A DNA stretch of 64,000 bases from Levilactobacillus yonginensis (GTDB taxonomy: Bacteria > Bacillota > Bacilli > Lactobacillales > Lactobacillaceae): positions 2,294,001 through 2,358,000 of the forward strand of contig NZ_OZ061549.1 of assembly GCF_964065165.1 (NCBI RefSeq). The letters run 5' to 3'. Made by a program: the position numbers and the translations under genes. The notes beneath the pieces are model-generated. The model ran no database searches. It was given only the letters and a program-made list of their open reading frames with translations, and had not been told where the DNA came from. Each line of letters opens with the position of its first letter. The stretch's first letter is position 1. Shown piece after piece: positions 8,369 to 26,662 of the stretch.

Positions 8369-10615
8369 CTAATGGTCGTTTGCGGCAGCAATGAAACTAG
8401 AAATTAGGTTCTCTGGAACACCTAGGGCAACGGCTGCCCGGAGTGGCATGTTGAGAAACATCTGGTTTTGCATCAAGACTAGATTACCGTTGCCATCCTT
8501 AAGCGTTAGGAAGTTGTTTGTGCGATCCTGTTCTGAGTCCAGAACGATGCGTTGGAAGAGGTCGTTTAATCGCGGCTCTTGGACGACTTGGGCGAAGTAA
8601 GTTTCAGACGTAACCGGTGCGGGTGAATTCTTAAAGTCCATGGTTAACTTCGTTTGCAGCCGGATGTCGCGGGAAGATTCACCAATCATAATTTCATAAT
8701 CACCAGTATCGGCTTCCCAGCGTTGTTTGGGTTCACACCACCAACTAAAGTCACGACGATTCAGTTTGAAGGTGACTAACTTCGTTTCGTGAGGATCGAT
8801 GCTCAGTTTTGTGAAGGCCCGCAATTCTTTGGTGGGCATTGGTTTATGTGTAGAATGGTTAGCAACGTAGAGTTGTGGAACAGCTTGGCCAACGCGGTCA
8901 CCCGTGTTGGTAATACCAAAGGTAACGGTGGCACCATGTTCATTTTGATCAATGACCAACTTAGAGTACTCAAAGTTGGTATAACTTAGTCCGTGACCAA
9001 ATGGGAAGAGAACGTGCATTTCGTGCGTATCGTAGTAACGGTAGCCCATGAAGATGCCTTCCGTATAGTATTCGTGATGAGGATCCTGACCAAAGGTTGG
9101 TGCCATTGGTGTGTCAGTTAAGCGCCGGGGGAAAGTTTCTGTCAAGTGACCGGAGGGATTTACCGCACCAGTAATGATATCCCAGGTCGATTCACCGACT
9201 GATTCTCCAGCCAGGTACGTTTCAACGACAGCAGCGGTGCTGTGGACCCAAGGCATTTCTACTGCAGATCCATTTTGAAGGACTACCGTTGTGTGGGGGT
9301 TGATCTTAGCAAGTTGACCCACCAGGTCGCCTTGGTTTTCAGGAAGCATTAGTGAGTTTTTATCAAAGCCCTCTGATTCAGCGCTTTCTGGATAACCAGC
9401 GAAGACAACGACGTGATCCGCAGTCTTGGCGGCGTTGAGCGCTGCCTGTGCCAGACTATCATCGGTTTCACTTTGATCCAAACGATAACCAGGGTAGTAG
9501 TCAGCTTTGAGGTCACTGGTTTGTAGCGCTGCTAATGGTGTTACCAAGTTGGTTGGGTTAACGTGTGAGCTGCCAGATCCTTGGTAGCGCGGCTTTTCAG
9601 CCAATTCACCAATCACCACAAGTTTGCCTTCGTTTCCCGGAGTCAATGGTAATTCGTTAGCGTGATTTTTGAGTAAAACGATACTATCATCGGCAACGGT
9701 CCGGGCGAAGTTGTGATGTGCTTCGTGGTCGTAAGTACTTGGTTTTTCAGCGGGTGCCCAATTGTCAATGATGTGGAGTAAGTGACGGACAGATTTGTTT
9801 AGCGTTCCTTCGTCTAATTCACCGGTATCAATTCCACGAATAATTTCATCCACGGAAGCCTGGCCTTTGCCGGGCATTTCCAGGTCCAATCCGGCACGTA
9901 AAGCTTGCGGATGGTCGGCGACTGCTCCCCAATCGGACATTACCGCGCCGTGGAAGCCCCATTCGTCCCGCAGAATGCTCCGTAAGAGTCGTTGGTTCTG
10001 AGAATTGAGGACACCGTTTATTTTGTTATAAGAGGTCATGACGGTAGCAGGTAGTGCAGCCTTGACGACGATTTCAAACGTTCGTAAATAAAGTTCACGT
10101 AGCGTTCGTTCCGACATATCACTAGAGGCTGTAAACCGCTGATTTTCACGGTTGTTTGCGGCAAAGTGCTTGACCGCCACGCCGACATGTCGGGATTGAA
10201 CACCTTTTACGTAGGCGCTCCCCAACTTACCGGCGACTAGTGGATCTTCTGAGAAGTATTCAAAGTTACGACCACCCAGAGGAGAGCGTTTGAGGTTGAT
10301 GCCGGGGCCTAGTAGTAGGCTCACTTGCTCAGCGCGCGCTTCCTCTCCTAAATGTTCCCCCATTTTCTGTAAGAGGGATTCATTCCACGAACTAGCGCTG
10401 AGCGCCGCCGTGGGAAAGGCAATTGCTTGAATTGAATCCGTGAAGTCAGCTTCAGAACCAGGCTTTTGTTTCCGAAGACCCGACGGTCCATCCGTCATCA
10501 TCAAGGCGGGAATGCCCAGTCGCTTTACAGCGGCCGTGTACCAGTTATTCTTTCCAGAGACCAAAGCGGCCTTCTCTGGTAACGTCAGTGCAGCAAGCGT
10601 TCGTTCGATGTCCAT
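8369..10615 (-). CDS. Glycoside hydrolase family 3 beta-glucosidase
   Basis: A 748-residue cytoplasmic enzyme without signal peptide, probably releasing glucose or another sugar from beta-glycosides. It has an N-terminal TIM barrel with KHFAANNRE (about 149-158) and the nucleophile Asp228 in VMSDWGA. The alpha/beta sandwich carries SEGFDKNSLMLPENQ, with Glu as likely acid/base. The C-terminal fibronectin-III-like domain follows GHGLSYTNFEYS. The start ATG 10615 has AGAAAGGA upstream. It is a lone leftward gene convergent with the acetyltransferase operon. Confidence 0.9.
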   Translation of the reverse strand: MDIERTLAALTLPEKAALVSGKNNWYTAAVKRLGIPALMMTDGPSGLRKQKPGSEADFTDSIQAIAFPTAALSASSWNESLLQKMGEHLGEEARAEQVSLLLGPGINLKRSPLGGRNFEYFSEDPLVAGKLGSAYVKGVQSRHVGVAVKHFAANNRENQRFTASSDMSERTLRELYLRTFEIVVKAALPATVMTSYNKINGVLNSQNQRLLRSILRDEWGFHGAVMSDWGAVADHPQALRAGLDLEMPGKGQASVDEIIRGIDTGELDEGTLNKSVRHLLHIIDNWAPAEKPSTYDHEAHHNFARTVADDSIVLLKNHANELPLTPGNEGKLVVIGELAEKPRYQGSGSSHVNPTNLVTPLAALQTSDLKADYYPGYRLDQSETDDSLAQAALNAAKTADHVVVFAGYPESAESEGFDKNSLMLPENQGDLVGQLAKINPHTTVVLQNGSAVEMPWVHSTAAVVETYLAGESVGESTWDIITGAVNPSGHLTETFPRRLTDTPMAPTFGQDPHHEYYTEGIFMGYRYYDTHEMHVLFPFGHGLSYTNFEYSKLVIDQNEHGATVTFGITNTGDRVGQAVPQLYVANHSTHKPMPTKELRAFTKLSIDPHETKLVTFKLNRRDFSWWCEPKQRWEADTGDYEIMIGESSRDIRLQTKLTMDFKNSPAPVTSETYFAQVVQEPRLNDLFQRIVLDSEQDRTNNFLTLKDGNGNLVLMQNQMFLNMPLRAAVALGVPENLISSFIAAANDH

Positions 10616-10698
10616 ACGTTCAAATCCTTTCTACTAGTCAAACTTAATTCCAGTATACCGTTTTCCTAGAGGAGATGTTAGTGAGTCGGTTTTTTTCT

Positions 10699-10729
10699 TT
10701 GACAAACGAGGGGGATTGGGGTAACTTTA
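10699..10729 (+). promoter_or_regulatory. Candidate promoter of the leader peptide-oppA unit
   Basis: TTGACA at 10699-10704 is a perfect -35. The -10 is weak: TAACTT lies 17 bases downstream and TTAATT a few bases later. A weak -10 would suit a regulated transcript that starts about 40 bases before the leader peptide. Confidence 0.4.
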
Positions 10730-10777
10730 ATTCTGTGCAATCCGTTTAATTACTAAAAATAAGGAGGGGAGACCACG

Positions 10778-10882
10778 ATGATGATTAATGCCAACCAAGT
10801 TCAAATGGTTTTAGCCGCATGTTGCGAATGTAACGTGTGCTTTTTGCGTTGCTCATATCGTGGACTTCCGGCTAAACCGTAG
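10778..10882 (+). CDS. Cysteine-rich 34-residue leader peptide upstream of oppA
   Basis: Too short for routine gene calling, but well supported. AAGGAGGGGAG precedes ATG 10778, and the frame stays open for 35 codons. The middle encodes five Cys in 11 codons (AACCECNVCFLRC, residues 13-25). An RNA hairpin can form across these codons: 10807-10817 pairs with 10869-10878 (GGTTTTAGCCG with CGGCTAAACC). A strong terminator at 10915-10960 follows before oppA. This is the layout of a ribosome-mediated attenuator in which stalling at Cys codons reports charged tRNA-Cys. A small bioactive peptide cannot be excluded, but no maturation genes are near. Confidence 0.65.
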   Translation: MMINANQVQMVLAACCECNVCFLRCSYRGLPAKP

Positions 10883-10914
10883 CAATACATAACGACGACT
10901 CAGGTTGTCAGTGT

Positions 10915-10960
10915 AGCGGGTTACCTTTCACGATACGAGTGAAGGGTAACCCGCTTTTTA
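10915..10960 (+). terminator. Strong terminator/attenuator between the Cys leader and oppA
   Basis: AGCGGGTTACCTTTCAC pairs with GTGAAGGGTAACCCGCT (17 bp, one G-U) around a 7-base loop, followed by TTTTT. It sits inside the upstream region of oppA, 33 bases after the leader peptide stop and 65 before the oppA ATG. It must be bypassed for oppA expression unless oppA has its own promoter within the 65 bases. Confidence 0.85.
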
Positions 10961-11024
10961 TGCATAAAAATTGGATTTAGGGATTGCACACCACTAAATT
11001 TGAAGACAAGGGAGCAATGATTTT

Positions 11025-12665
11025 ATGAGAAAATGGACCGGATTGGGACTCGTCGCAGCTGTAATGGCTTTGAGCCTGGGGTTAGCAGCTTGTGGCCAGT
11101 CAGCTTCCTCAGCGAAGCCCACCCAAGAGCTACGGTTACCCGCTACCGCACAACTTGATACGATTGATTTAGCCAAAGCCACTGGTTATGGTCAAACGGG
11201 AAATGTGTTTGAAGGATTTTATCGGTTGGGGAAGAACGGTCAAGTAGCACCAGGGTTAGCCGATAAAGTTCAGGAGTCTAAGGATCAGAAGACCTGGACC
11301 TTTCACATCCGGGACAATGCTAAGTGGAGTAATGGCGATAAGATCACTGCCCAGGATTTCGTCTATTCTTGGCGGCGGACGTTAACACCAGCTACCAAGT
11401 CTTCCTACACCAACATGTTCTCCGGCATTAAGAATGGCGATAAGATTATTGCGGGGAAGGCTGATCCGAACACGATTGGAATCCATGCCAAGAACCAGCA
11501 GACAGTGATTGTTAAGCTAGATAGACCAATTGCCTACTTTAAAATTTTGATGGCATACCCACTGTTTGCCCCGCAAAATAAGAAGGTTATCGACAAGTAT
11601 GGTAAGAAGTACGCTACTAAGTCGGAATTCATGGTCTACAGTGGTCCTTTCAAGATTACGGACTGGAGTGGGACTGGGAACACCTGGTCCTTTGTGAAGA
11701 ACAATCAGTACTGGGATAAGAACGTGGTTAAGTTGCAAAAAATCAAGTATCAAGTTGTGACCAACCCACAGACGGGGTTGAGCCTGTATCAGAACAACAA
11801 GCTTGATTTTGCTAACCTGACCAACGAACAAGTTAAAAACTATAAGAACGACCAGGCGTTTAAAGAATATCCCTACTCTATCGTGATTCACTTGAAGTAT
11901 AATTTCCAAGACGCCAATAAAGAAAAGCGCCGAATTATGAACAATCAAAACATTCGGCAGGCCATTGCACTGTCCATTAACCGCAGTCAGCTGACGAAGA
12001 AGGTCTTAGGCGACGGGTCCGTGACACCAACTGGTTTTGTAGCCAGTGGTTTGGCTAAGGATCCTAAGACGGGTGAAGACTTTGCTAAGCAACAAACCGT
12101 TAAGAATTCCACTACCTATAACCCAACATTGGCTAGACAAAAGTGGACTCAGGGTCTGAAACAGTTGGGAATCAAGAAGGTCGACCTGAGTATCATGGCT
12201 GGAAACGATGATGCGGCTGCCAGCACAGTGACGCAGTATCTCAAAGGCGCTTTGGAAAAGAACCTGAAAGGCTTTGATTTGAAGATTCAAAACGTACCAG
12301 CTTCTGTTGCTCAGTCACGTTCAACTAGTGGGGACTTTGACCTCTACCTGTCACACTGGGGTGCCGATTTCAATGACCCAATTTCCTTCCTCCAGATTCC
12401 AGTCAGTTCCAATTCACTGAACTATGGCAAGTGGTCTAACAAGCAGTATGACCAATTGATCAATAAAGCTCAGAATCAGGATGCCGGTCAGCCGGAGGTT
12501 CGGTGGCAAGATATGATTAAAGCGGCTAAGATGCTCAATCAGACACAGAGCTTCACGCCACTTTACCAGGCTAATTACGCCTACCTCCAACGCCGTACTG
12601 CCAAAGGAATCATTCATAACACGGCGGGGACACAGTGGAGTTATAAGTATGCGTACATTAAGTGA
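11025..12665 (+). CDS. oppA: Peptide ABC transporter substrate-binding lipoprotein (OppA family)
   Basis: A solute-binding protein of family 5 (546 residues). The signal peptide ends in lipobox LGLAAC with Cys23 as the lipid anchor, so it is tethered outside the membrane. Family hallmarks include KWSNGDKITAQDFVYSWRR (about 97-115) and the C-terminal ADFNDPISFL. No permease or ATPase genes are adjacent, so it must work with a transporter encoded elsewhere. The RBS is GGGAGCA before ATG 11025. The Cys-codon leader and terminator upstream imply that its peptides serve as a cysteine or sulfur source. A paralogue lies at 21683-23335. Confidence 0.93.
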   Translation: MRKWTGLGLVAAVMALSLGLAACGQSASSAKPTQELRLPATAQLDTIDLAKATGYGQTGNVFEGFYRLGKNGQVAPGLADKVQESKDQKTWTFHIRDNAKWSNGDKITAQDFVYSWRRTLTPATKSSYTNMFSGIKNGDKIIAGKADPNTIGIHAKNQQTVIVKLDRPIAYFKILMAYPLFAPQNKKVIDKYGKKYATKSEFMVYSGPFKITDWSGTGNTWSFVKNNQYWDKNVVKLQKIKYQVVTNPQTGLSLYQNNKLDFANLTNEQVKNYKNDQAFKEYPYSIVIHLKYNFQDANKEKRRIMNNQNIRQAIALSINRSQLTKKVLGDGSVTPTGFVASGLAKDPKTGEDFAKQQTVKNSTTYNPTLARQKWTQGLKQLGIKKVDLSIMAGNDDAAASTVTQYLKGALEKNLKGFDLKIQNVPASVAQSRSTSGDFDLYLSHWGADFNDPISFLQIPVSSNSLNYGKWSNKQYDQLINKAQNQDAGQPEVRWQDMIKAAKMLNQTQSFTPLYQANYAYLQRRTAKGIIHNTAGTQWSYKYAYIK

Positions 12666-12841
12666 TAACTAAGGATTGAAAGCAAAATTGATAGCCATTG
12701 GAAGCCAGGAATGTGACCGGCTGAAAAAGACACCGGTCCGTTCGCCAAGCCCCTGTGTCCGCATCGTTTCAGCTCATGTCTGACGGCTGGTAAGTGAGTG
12801 GCCTTGTGATGTGGTCGCTTGTCGTTCATTGTTGTATCATG

Positions 12842-13414
12842 ATGGCAGAGGATGGTGACGAGGTAATGGCGATTGGACCAAATGACGGCCAAGAGTGGCT
12901 GACCAATGGCACGCAAGAATACCATGCGTACTTTGGTACGCCGACCCACGATGATCACGTGCTGTATGAACTTCTAACGGTAGGGGTCTTTCAAGTGGGC
13001 CTAAGCTGGCAGGCAGCGGCTAGTAAATTACCCGTGTATCGCCGGTTGTTTGCGGAAATGAATCCGCAAGTCGTTGCTGGATTTGAAGACGAGTTGGATG
13101 GCGAACGGATTGCGCGAGACGCTGACATGATTAGTAACGGGCGCAAGATCCGGGCAACCATTCGGAATGCGCGGGCGATTATCCGGGTGCAACAGGAGTT
13201 TGGCAGTTTTGCTGATTATCTCTGGGCCTTTGTCGATGGAACACCATATCTGTTACCGGCTGTGACCCGGGATGAACTGACTAATCAGTCGGCAATTGGG
13301 ACGGCGGTAGCCAAGGATTTAAAACAGCGGGGGTTTAGCTTCGTGGGGCCGGTCGTCACGCACATGTTTCTATTGGCAGCTGGAATTTTACGCGAGCAGG
13401 TTCTTGATGACTAA
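12842..13414 (+). CDS. Tag-family protein lacking zinc ligands and catalytic Glu
   Basis: Aligns with Tag along its length: YELLTVGVFQVGLSWQ matches the Tag block FELLCLETYQAGLSWQ, and KQRGFSFVGPVVTHMFLLAAG matches the C-terminal block. The Glu that Tag uses in catalysis is Gly here, the N-terminal RCxW is missing, and the C-terminal HxxxC zinc ligands are replaced (GILREQVLDD). It may therefore bind damaged bases differently or lack glycosylase activity. Start is uncertain: no good ribosome site exists, and ATG 12839, 12842 or 12866 are all possible. About 190 residues. Confidence 0.75.
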   Translation: MAEDGDEVMAIGPNDGQEWLTNGTQEYHAYFGTPTHDDHVLYELLTVGVFQVGLSWQAAASKLPVYRRLFAEMNPQVVAGFEDELDGERIARDADMISNGRKIRATIRNARAIIRVQQEFGSFADYLWAFVDGTPYLLPAVTRDELTNQSAIGTAVAKDLKQRGFSFVGPVVTHMFLLAAGILREQVLDD

Positions 13415-13525
13415 GTGAAATTTAGATGAGAAAAAGTAATGGCGATAAGATTATTTTTCCGGGCTAATATAGGTAAAGAGCTGTGTTGTGGGCGTTAACA
13501 TAAAAGCATTTATCTAAAATTGTTC

Positions 13526-13554
13526 TTGACACCGAATTAAAGTTTCATTAGACT
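13526..13554 (+). promoter_or_regulatory. Promoter of the met T-box transcript
   Basis: TTGACA (13526-13531), 17-base spacer, TAGACT (13549-13554). It lies directly before the T-box leader, as expected for a riboswitch-controlled promoter. Confidence 0.65.
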
Positions 13555-13560
13555 TGCTAT

Positions 13561-13860
13561 TAAATTAAGCGATTGAAAACAATGTGATCAGGAGAGTAGC
13601 CTTCGTCAATGGTTCCAAGAGAGCTCGCGATTTGCTGTAAGCGGGTAACCCACGGCAAGGTGAAGATGGCCTGAAATTAATTGGTATCACTGAGTCCTTG
13701 GGATGAGGTGGTAATGTCTGGCACTCATTAGCGTGCACGCACTTTAAGGCATTAGCTGGCGAGTGTTAATGAGGAGCCAGCATTATTTTATGTGCCGACT
13801 TAAATTAGAATGGTACCACGACAAGTTCGTTTCTATTAATTTAGGAGCGGACTTTTTCTT
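13561..13860 (+). ncRNA. T-box riboswitch, probably methionine-specific
   Basis: The conserved T-box AGAATGGTACCACG lies at 13807-13820. The terminator follows: 13823-13834 (AAGTTCGTTTCT) pairs over 12 bp with 13843-13854 (AGGAGCGGACTT), then a T-run. Upstream, AGGAGAGTAG (about 13590) fits the stem I region, and GGTGAAGATGGCCT contains ATG at 13666-13668 in the position of a specifier codon, implying tRNA-Met. Uncharged tRNA pairs with the TGG of the T-box and stabilises an antiterminator. The downstream genes encode a methionine ABC transporter, in agreement. Confidence 0.88.
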
Positions 13861-13936
13861 TTGGTCATTGTTTGCAACCGTGGCGTTTAACTTTTGAGGA
13901 TTTAGAAATTATTGAAAAATAAAGGGGATTTTGAGT

Positions 13937-14749
13937 ATGAAGAAATCATTTAAACATTTTAGCTGGCTCCTATTATTATTGATTCCATTGTTAATCGTTG
14001 CCGGTTGTGGGAAGTCTAGTAGTTCCAGCAACAAGACTGTGAAGGTTGGAATCATGGGTTCCGACGAAAAAATCTGGAAACCAATTCAATCTAAGTTAAA
14101 GAAGCAAGGTATTAACATCAAATTGGTGACTTTCACCGATTACAACCAGCCTAACGCTGCGTTGACCAACCATGAAATTGATTTAAACTCGTTCCAACAC
14201 ACATACTTCATGGATCAATGGAACAAGGCTCACAAGAGTAACATCGTTTCCATCGGGAAGACTGTTCGGGCACCACTACGGTTATACTCCAAAAAGGTTA
14301 AGAGCGTTTCAGCCATCAAGAAGGGTGACCAAATTACGATCCCTAACGACTCCACCAATGAAGGACGGGCCTTACACTTACTGCAATCAGCTGGCTTGAT
14401 CAAGGTTGATAGCAAGGTTGAGTTACCAACGCCTAAGAACATCACGGAAAACAAGTTGAAGTTAAAGATTACGGCTGTTGATGCTGCTCAAACACCACGT
14501 TCGTTGACTGATGCGACCGGTGCTGTTATCAACAACGAATTTGCCGCTGAAGCTAAGTTGCCTAACAAGGAAACTATCTTCAAGGAAAAGATCAATAAGG
14601 CATCAATTCCTTACATCAACATCATCGCAACCAACAAGTCTGACAAGAACAACAAGACCTACAAGAAGATCGTGAAGGCTTACCAGACTGAGGCAACCAA
14701 GAAGTTGTTGCAGAAGTACTACCACGGCTTGACCATCCCAGCTTGGTAA
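13937..14749 (+). CDS. metQ: Methionine ABC transporter substrate-binding lipoprotein
   Basis: NlpA/MetQ family, 270 residues. The signal peptide ends in IVAGC with Cys24 as the lipid anchor. VKVGIMGSDEKIWKPI and TIPNDSTNEGRALHLLQSAG are typical family blocks. ATG 13937 is preferred; TTG 13931 is too close to the GGGG ribosome site. It captures methionine (possibly D-Met or Met peptides) for MetN-MetP and is controlled by the T-box upstream. A 170-base gap separates it from metN. Confidence 0.93.
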   Translation: MKKSFKHFSWLLLLLIPLLIVAGCGKSSSSSNKTVKVGIMGSDEKIWKPIQSKLKKQGINIKLVTFTDYNQPNAALTNHEIDLNSFQHTYFMDQWNKAHKSNIVSIGKTVRAPLRLYSKKVKSVSAIKKGDQITIPNDSTNEGRALHLLQSAGLIKVDSKVELPTPKNITENKLKLKITAVDAAQTPRSLTDATGAVINNEFAAEAKLPNKETIFKEKINKASIPYINIIATNKSDKNNKTYKKIVKAYQTEATKKLLQKYYHGLTIPAW

Positions 14750-26588: not shown

Positions 26589-26662
26589 TGTCGCAAGAGA
26601 GATTCGAACCCTCGACCTACGGTTTAGAAGACCGTTGCTCTATCCAGCTGAGCTATTGCGAC
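26589..26662 (-). tRNA. tRNA-Arg (anticodon TCT)
   Basis: Acceptor arms GTCGCAA/TTGCGAC, D arm GCTC-AGCTGGATA-GAGC, anticodon stem ACGGT/ACCGT around CTTCTAA with anticodon TCT, T arm GAGGGTTCGAATCTCTC (close to consensus), discriminator A. CCA is not encoded. Reads AGA and AGG Arg codons. Single gene between a terminator repeat and a small membrane protein gene. Confidence 0.96.

Follow-up and report, generated by a model that had tools for sequence, protein, structure and literature searches.

The peptide-binding lipoprotein gene oppA of Levilactobacillus yonginensis is preceded by a short leader frame with a cluster of Cys codons and by an intrinsic terminator. Together these very probably form a ribosome-mediated transcription attenuator of the trp/his type that senses cysteine and switches oppA on when charged tRNA-Cys is scarce. 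This reading draws on the anatomy of the element, its conservation, compensatory base changes and predicted folds.

The gene (11025..12665, forward strand) lies in the window, that is, the whole 64-kb stretch of DNA that was analysed. Its product belongs to the SBP_bac_5 family (PF00496, E 1.8e-74) and is OppA-like in NCBIfam with a score under that model's cut-off; its closest solved-structure relatives by sequence are peptide-binding proteins (top 5kzt, E 2.4e-106). The leader region is situated between oppA and a family 3 glycosidase gene on the opposite strand (8369-10615). Downstream of oppA follow a 3-methyladenine glycosylase gene, metQ- and metN-like genes (below NCBIfam cut-offs), and an ORF that would be the permease, assigned by position only. 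No Rfam family, T-box or other known RNA, matched at 10600-11025; a T-box (RF00230) covariance search of 10600-14000 at E<=1 gave a sole match at 13575-13837, ahead of metQ (E 5.6e-17, under the Rfam gathering score), with the specifier read as AUG. Elsewhere in the window are a cspA thermoregulator (RF01766, 25770-26131) and a tRNA gene (26589-26662).

Transcription of the leader and oppA likely starts near the probable promoter at 10699 (Table 1), whose TTGACA columns are invariant in 35/35 same-genus rows; the -10 box is poor, and a consensus promoter scan did not list the pair. With this likely promoter and a long-range pairing partner that extends to 10990, the attenuator element is larger than the 10778..10960 assigned to it in the preliminary description.

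Table 1. Features of the oppA leader region (positions in the window)
Feature	Position	Strand	Sequence and remarks
Probable promoter	10699..10727	+	TTGACA 10699-10704, 17 nt, TAACTT 10722-10727; read from sequence
Long-range helix, left arm	10734..10743	+	TGTGCAATCC; close to presumed RNA 5' end
Shine-Dalgarno of leader	10761..10769	+	AAGGAGGGG; read from sequence; kept in same-genus rows
Region 1	10773..10779	+	CCACGAT; overlaps leader start; can pair with region 2 (protector); folding
Leader peptide ORF	10778..10882	+	34 codons, ATG start, stop TAG 10880-10882
Hairpin across first three Cys codons	10817-10825:10830-10838	+	9 bp; folding
Region 2	10857..10864	+	ATCGTGGA; end part of leader ORF; alternative partners region 3 (antiterminator) and region 1
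Middle hairpin	10886..10915	+	leader stop to terminator; enclosed by antiterminator; two pairs changed on both sides
Intrinsic terminator	10915..10960	+	stem 10915-10955, 17 bp, T tail; region 3 (10927-10934) in 5' arm
Long-range helix, right arm	10981..10990	+	GGATTGCACA; upstream of oppA ribosome site

The leader frame, its strong ribosome site and its five Cys codons within 11 are present as had been claimed, and so are the hairpin over the Cys codons and the 17-bp terminator ahead of oppA. The frame translates as MMINANQVQMVLAACCECNVCFLRCSYRGLPAKP, with Cys at codons 15, 16, 18, 21 and 25 (beginning at 10820, 10823, 10829, 10838 and 10850). In a survey of 800 kb of the same chromosome on both strands, about 28% of the genome, 27 Cys-cluster ORFs were preceded by a Shine-Dalgarno sequence and three of these had a terminator nearby; among the three, the oppA leader ranked first both for Cys within 8 codons and for terminator stability. 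The second, at G000:C1:2131234 on the minus strand, encodes a Cys-rich small protein of 58 residues, metallothionein-like by eye, with a terminator behind it, and the third looks like chance. DNA similarity revealed no second copy of the element in the genome, and no Cys-cluster leader was found upstream of five oppA paralogues in it.

The proposed mechanism is as follows. With ample charged tRNA-Cys, the ribosome would translate past the Cys codons as far as the stop at 10880 and cover region 2; the terminator would then form and transcription would end before oppA. Under a shortage of charged tRNA-Cys, the ribosome would stall at the Cys codons (10820-10852) and leave region 2 free to pair with region 3 in the 5' arm of the terminator before the 3' arm is made, and the polymerase would read into oppA. 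If the leader is not translated at all, region 2 would pair with region 1 at the leader start, making termination the default. Stalling, the kinetic order of the pairings, the cysteine response, and the import by OppA of peptides containing Cys or sulfur amino acids are the model's predicted parts.

Within the genus, the arrangement is constant. Each of the 35 same-genus genomes searched (own included) encodes an OppA orthologue of 78-100% identity; in each, a leader with the core ACC[EQKV]CN stands ahead of oppA, and a DNA search with the element gave one match per genome. A short leader ORF with a ribosome site, as in the trp and his attenuators, is thus present in sequence at 35/35 same-genus loci and is putatively translated. 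Among named records, the eleven with the most similar OppA (79-88%) all belong to Levilactobacillus, and Lentilactobacillus follows at 65%. The leader peptide ends early, after the Cys cluster, in L008, L012, L015, L016 and L036, where much of the following RNA is kept, and its end is in another frame in L030, L032 and L035. At a single same-genus locus, L007 (genome G020), the Cys leader and the long-range helix are kept and the terminator hairpin is lost.

Across the Lactobacillaceae, an orthologue was found at E<=1e-155 in 152/397 genomes and 17/40 genera. Upstream regions were fetched for 80 loci chosen from the 152-genome set and for 9 others. A codon cluster was scored when an ORF preceded by a Shine-Dalgarno sequence had at least three equal residues in 8 codons within 400 bases, in regions of at least 350 bases. 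A Cys cluster of this kind was present in 103 of 123 regions upstream of oppA orthologues; dinucleotide shuffling gave 2.0 and the antisense strand 0. The 123 include 35 same-genus regions, which are not independent, and L058, cut by a contig end, was dropped. The next residues in the same count were Met (31; 1.0 shuffled), Val (21; 7.4), Leu (18; 16.6), Ser (16; 9.0) and Gln (14; 0.4). Among named records, which include L. plantarum, L. brevis, L. salivarius and P. pentosaceus and were taken as the best 80 of 584 found, the Cys leader was seen in 33/40 orthologues (51-88% identical) and 0/40 paralogues (39-46%), one record of each kind having a short upstream sequence. A mechanical search found the leader at 110/124 loci, with six of those picks judged wrong or doubtful, and missed the Cys-cluster ORF present at L119. 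A hairpin of -10 kcal/mol or lower with a T tail follows the leader in 105/110 loci, one of the 105 (L007) being spurious.

Judged by eye, the leader peptides are almost wholly different between genera (e.g. MKSLKQFCCCSTCLFTNLAVTTLNEAC, MQMSAAKMMCCSMCQAQVSADRGFFGKRFILERQTVG, MSKFINTQCCCLVTCCPVGNMEFDMQKIRLTLPRLD and MLFTNTKSVVEACACCLKDHMSFGRRK), and the Cys cluster is kept. A regulatory-codon cluster retained while the rest of the peptide diverges is the pattern of an attenuator. The preliminary description would have been abandoned had the Cys codons or the frame not been conserved in relatives; the cluster is kept at 35/35 same-genus loci and in about a dozen other genera. The spread of Cys leaders between genera may reflect either common descent with fast divergence or repeated origin.

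We examined pairing in an alignment of 24 of the 35 same-genus rows (L011, L015, L016, L019, L024, L030 and L032-L036 were left out as near duplicates or because of insertions or a diverged leader). Compensatory changes were found in the paired arms upstream of the oppA orthologues, which the preliminary description had proposed to align: five pairs changed on both sides in the terminator, three in the antiterminator and one in the protector. The terminator is of the intrinsic type and is lost in L007. The motif CACGAT is common to regions 1 and 3, both complementary to region 2; this is the layout of the trp and his attenuators. In the protector (10773-10779:10857-10863), 90.5% of cells were paired, with the last pair broken in 10/24 rows; this protector, which by modelling would give termination without translation, is predicted from the rows of this genus. 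The hairpin over the Cys codons was paired in 98.6% of cells with no pair changed on both sides, and is weak evidence for structure because its arms hardly vary. The long-range helix (10734-10743:10981-10990) was paired in 100% of cells with two pairs changed on both sides, and most relatives have [AG]CCA directly after its right arm. Its mean z was -2.92 in this genus versus -1.42 to 1.07 in 12 other genera, so that it was supported in Levilactobacillus and in none of the 12 others.

The full structure of long-range helix, protector, Cys hairpin, middle hairpin and terminator had 95.4% of cells paired and ten pairs changed on both sides, against a shuffle mean of 4.9 and a count reached by 0/500 shuffles; slid structures were 26-49% paired. 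The alternative structure, antiterminator plus middle hairpin, was 91.8% paired, and five of its pairs had changes in both partners, a count that 35/500 shuffles attained (shuffle mean 3.3); the outer antiterminator pair was broken in 13/21 rows. These shuffles keep relatedness in, and the tested structure was derived from one of the same sequences.

Folding with the ribosome placed at different positions offers a picture of how the switch may work. When the leading edge of the ribosome was set after Cys2, Cys3 or Cys4 and the RNA was cut off at the 5' arm of the terminator, the helix 10857-10864:10927-10934 formed together with inner pairs, enclosing 10886-10915; with the edge after Cys5, only the inner antiterminator pairs were left, and with the ribosome at the stop, region 2 was covered by construction. 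When no ribosome covered the leader and the RNA stopped at the same arm, region 2 paired with CCACGAT at the leader start. When the whole terminator was included, the minimum-energy fold held the terminator in every ribosome state; the switch must therefore be kinetic, decided during transcription.

Complementarity between region 2 and the terminator 5' arm reached p<=0.05 against shuffled region 2 at 40/101 loci (15/34 in this genus). The genus mean z was -1.6 to -5.6 in g1, g12, g13, g14, g15, g22, g23 and g55, of which g12, g13 and g55 are represented by one locus each; a control stretch before the Cys codons gave -0.36 to 1.10. The complementarity was weak in g20 and g61 and absent in g24, g5 and g60. 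When region 2 was extended to the terminator, the value for g5 was -1.48, and g24 and g60 gave no signal. Partition functions for the 101 loci had at least 0.3 of the terminator arm paired upstream in 96 with the ribosome at the first Cys codon versus 24 with the ribosome at the stop, a drop that is in part trivial, as less RNA is free in the latter state. Loci L007, L061, L084, L117, L118, L125 and L127 (wrong or doubtful leader, or no real terminator) were left out of the pairing and partition tests; the extended region 2 and long-range helix test left out the same loci except L007. All of these tests also left out loci with a hairpin weaker than -12 kcal/mol. An antiterminator, whose complementarity is seen again in most though not all other genera, is thus predicted for this genus and several others, only before the 3' arm of the terminator is made, and is unsupported in g24 and g60. 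Together, the conserved Cys cluster and the alternative pairings with their compensatory changes favor the ribosome-mediated attenuation that the preliminary description had proposed.

At some orthologues, the leader is replaced by another sensor of tRNA charging. Fourteen of the 124 loci lack the leader by the mechanical criterion, and seven of these (L069-L073, L108 and L128) have a T-box ahead of oppA (E 1e-20 to 3e-12; above the Rfam gathering score in two, below it in five). All seven show GAA-N-AUG at the expected specifier position. The same GAA-N-codon rule gives Val, Tyr, Trp and Leu for the own-genome T-boxes before valS, tyrS, trpS and leuS and fails for pheS, argS and asnS (genes named by eye); the Met specifier reading is therefore good, not certain. 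At 20 Cys-leader loci searched, T-box matches were located downstream of oppA; no T-box was found at L123, L126, L127 and L129. Neither a Cys leader nor a T-box was found at L045, L130 (g25), L122 (g9), L074 (g53) and L124 (g12). One genome, G408, holds two oppA orthologues, L128 behind a T-box read as Met and L129 behind the Cys leader MCCCCQCACMELNLTVPVAA, which has a weak ribosome site and for which no terminator was found.

A tree of 20 OppA rows has a poorly supported backbone. Within it, one supported group unites two g53 rows that carry T-boxes with Cys-leader rows from g60 and g22, and the T-box row from g56 clusters with Cys-leader rows from g15 and g12; L144, whose frame is cut, was left out of the OppA alignment. 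Since T-box rows group with Cys-leader rows in two places, the sequences suggest that the sensor on the oppA clade changed at least twice between Cys leader and T-box. The occurrence of Cys leaders and Met-read T-boxes on orthologues, with one genome holding both, suggests that oppA may serve sulfur amino-acid supply. Other OppA-like genes of the own genome (L154, L155, L160 and L166; L154 and L166 checked by family search, two by eye) also lie behind T-boxes, so that control by a single amino acid seems to apply to several of its peptide-binding proteins.

One alternative is that the leader responds to methionine as well as cysteine: in at least some genera, Met codons next to the Cys cluster (MMMCCPCC in Lactiplantibacillus is an example) would add a Met signal. 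We regard this as possible but doubtful. It would fit the Met clusters at 31/123 loci against 1.0 in shuffles, the share of Met near the Cys cluster (23% of residues in g61, 8.7% as a mean over 13 genera), and the Met-read T-boxes that orthologous oppA genes carry elsewhere. However, that share falls to 5% in this genus and to 0 in g24, the count includes doublets at the start such as MM, and Gln, an implausible signal here, is also enriched (14 versus 0.4), so that early-codon composition may explain part of the Met enrichment. Control might alternatively act on translation or mRNA stability, with stalling rearranging the RNA round the oppA ribosome site, helped by the long-range helix. The complete pairing of that helix, its two pairs changed on both sides, and L007, with leader and helix kept and the terminator lost, are in line with such control, which we nevertheless hold to be unlikely given that a T-tailed hairpin follows the leader in 105/110 loci (one spurious) and that the helix is supported in one genus only.

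Copper-related leader ORFs provide a model for metal-linked control by a Cys-rich nascent peptide, and metal binding by close Cys pairs (CCECN, CCPCC) is conceivable; a nascent oppA leader peptide might thus bind metal, or react with an oxidant or thiol, and so control the downstream gene. Yet the Cys spacing varies between genera (CCECN, CCCC, CTCC, CCPCC, CACC), the controlled gene encodes a peptide-binding protein, and T-boxes replace the leader at seven orthologue loci, which makes this explanation very improbable. Still harder to believe is direct ligand sensing by a structured RNA in which the leader frame is incidental: RNA conservation does run past the leader frame shifts in this genus, but outside it the upstream DNA differs while the Cys codons stay, and the element has no Rfam family match.

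The proposed attenuator is of a known kind; what looks new is the oppA member itself, the gene that it precedes, its distribution across the family and the swap between it and a Met-read T-box. Listeria monocytogenes belongs to the same class as the lactobacilli. Its Rli60 is a tested ribosome-mediated transcription attenuator with a leader peptide and overlapping hairpins (PMC5864092), sharing the attenuator layout and a Gram-positive host with the oppA leader and differing in that it responds to branched-chain amino acids and precedes a biosynthesis operon. Cys-codon leaders have been described in Actinobacteria, where polycysteine short ORFs stand before the sulfur genes of the cysteine-responsive mycobacterial cys operons (PMC1262725). 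These share the short ORF and the runs of Cys codons with the oppA leader; by that account, they precede biosynthesis genes and no conserved terminator hairpin was found, whereas the oppA leader has a terminator and a peptide-binding gene. The leaders of Canestrari et al. 2020, as cited in PMC13236596, are by title leaderless ORFs and are described as acting by translation attenuation. With its Shine-Dalgarno sequence and strong terminator, the oppA leader falls outside the mycobacterial type of leaderless ORF and no terminator hairpin. The uORFC-8-2 motif ahead of cysS in Rhodobacterales resembles it in having tandem Cys codons in a uORF, two stems, a U run and proposed ribosome-mediated attenuation by tRNA-Cys; it differs in phylum, gene and number of Cys codons (two), and is itself a prediction (PMC8632094).

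T-boxes are the dominant device in Firmicutes, where as of 2010 few attenuators of the classical leader-peptide type had been recognised (PMC2965389). According to the same source, His leader peptides replace T-boxes before hisS/hisZ in bacilli; like the oppA leader, these are Firmicutes leader peptides in the place of a T-box, with His codons and other genes. The T-box itself (RF00230) likewise lets tRNA charging control a terminator and precedes orthologous oppA in other genera, but the tRNA binds the RNA directly and there is no leader peptide. The main text of a T-box transporter survey mentions neither oppA nor oligopeptide (PMC2494555). Our literature search found no cysteine attenuator for lactobacilli, and the preliminary description knew of none of this type there, although coverage of subscription papers was limited and absence is thus unproven.

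A link of OppA to sulfur is suggested by the Cys sensor, by the Met-read T-boxes and by metQ and metN nearby. Listeria CtaP, the substrate-binding component of a peptide transporter, illustrates that such a protein can take part in cysteine uptake (PMC10269559). Extended to the whole family, these observations would describe a fast-evolving Cys attenuator on one Lactobacillaceae peptide-binding clade that was swapped at least twice for a Met T-box, even between two copies in one genome, as interchangeable tRNA-charging sensors of either sulfur amino acid, with the Levilactobacillus long-range helix from the 5' end to oppA as a further layer of control. We give this wider picture an even chance of being right. 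Within the oppA clade, nature has set two types of tRNA-charging sensor side by side for comparison, and L007, as a leader without a terminator, is a natural test of the mechanism. The leader might be used to report on cysteine, and its presence predicts what a peptide-binding protein of industrial and gut species does in nutrition.
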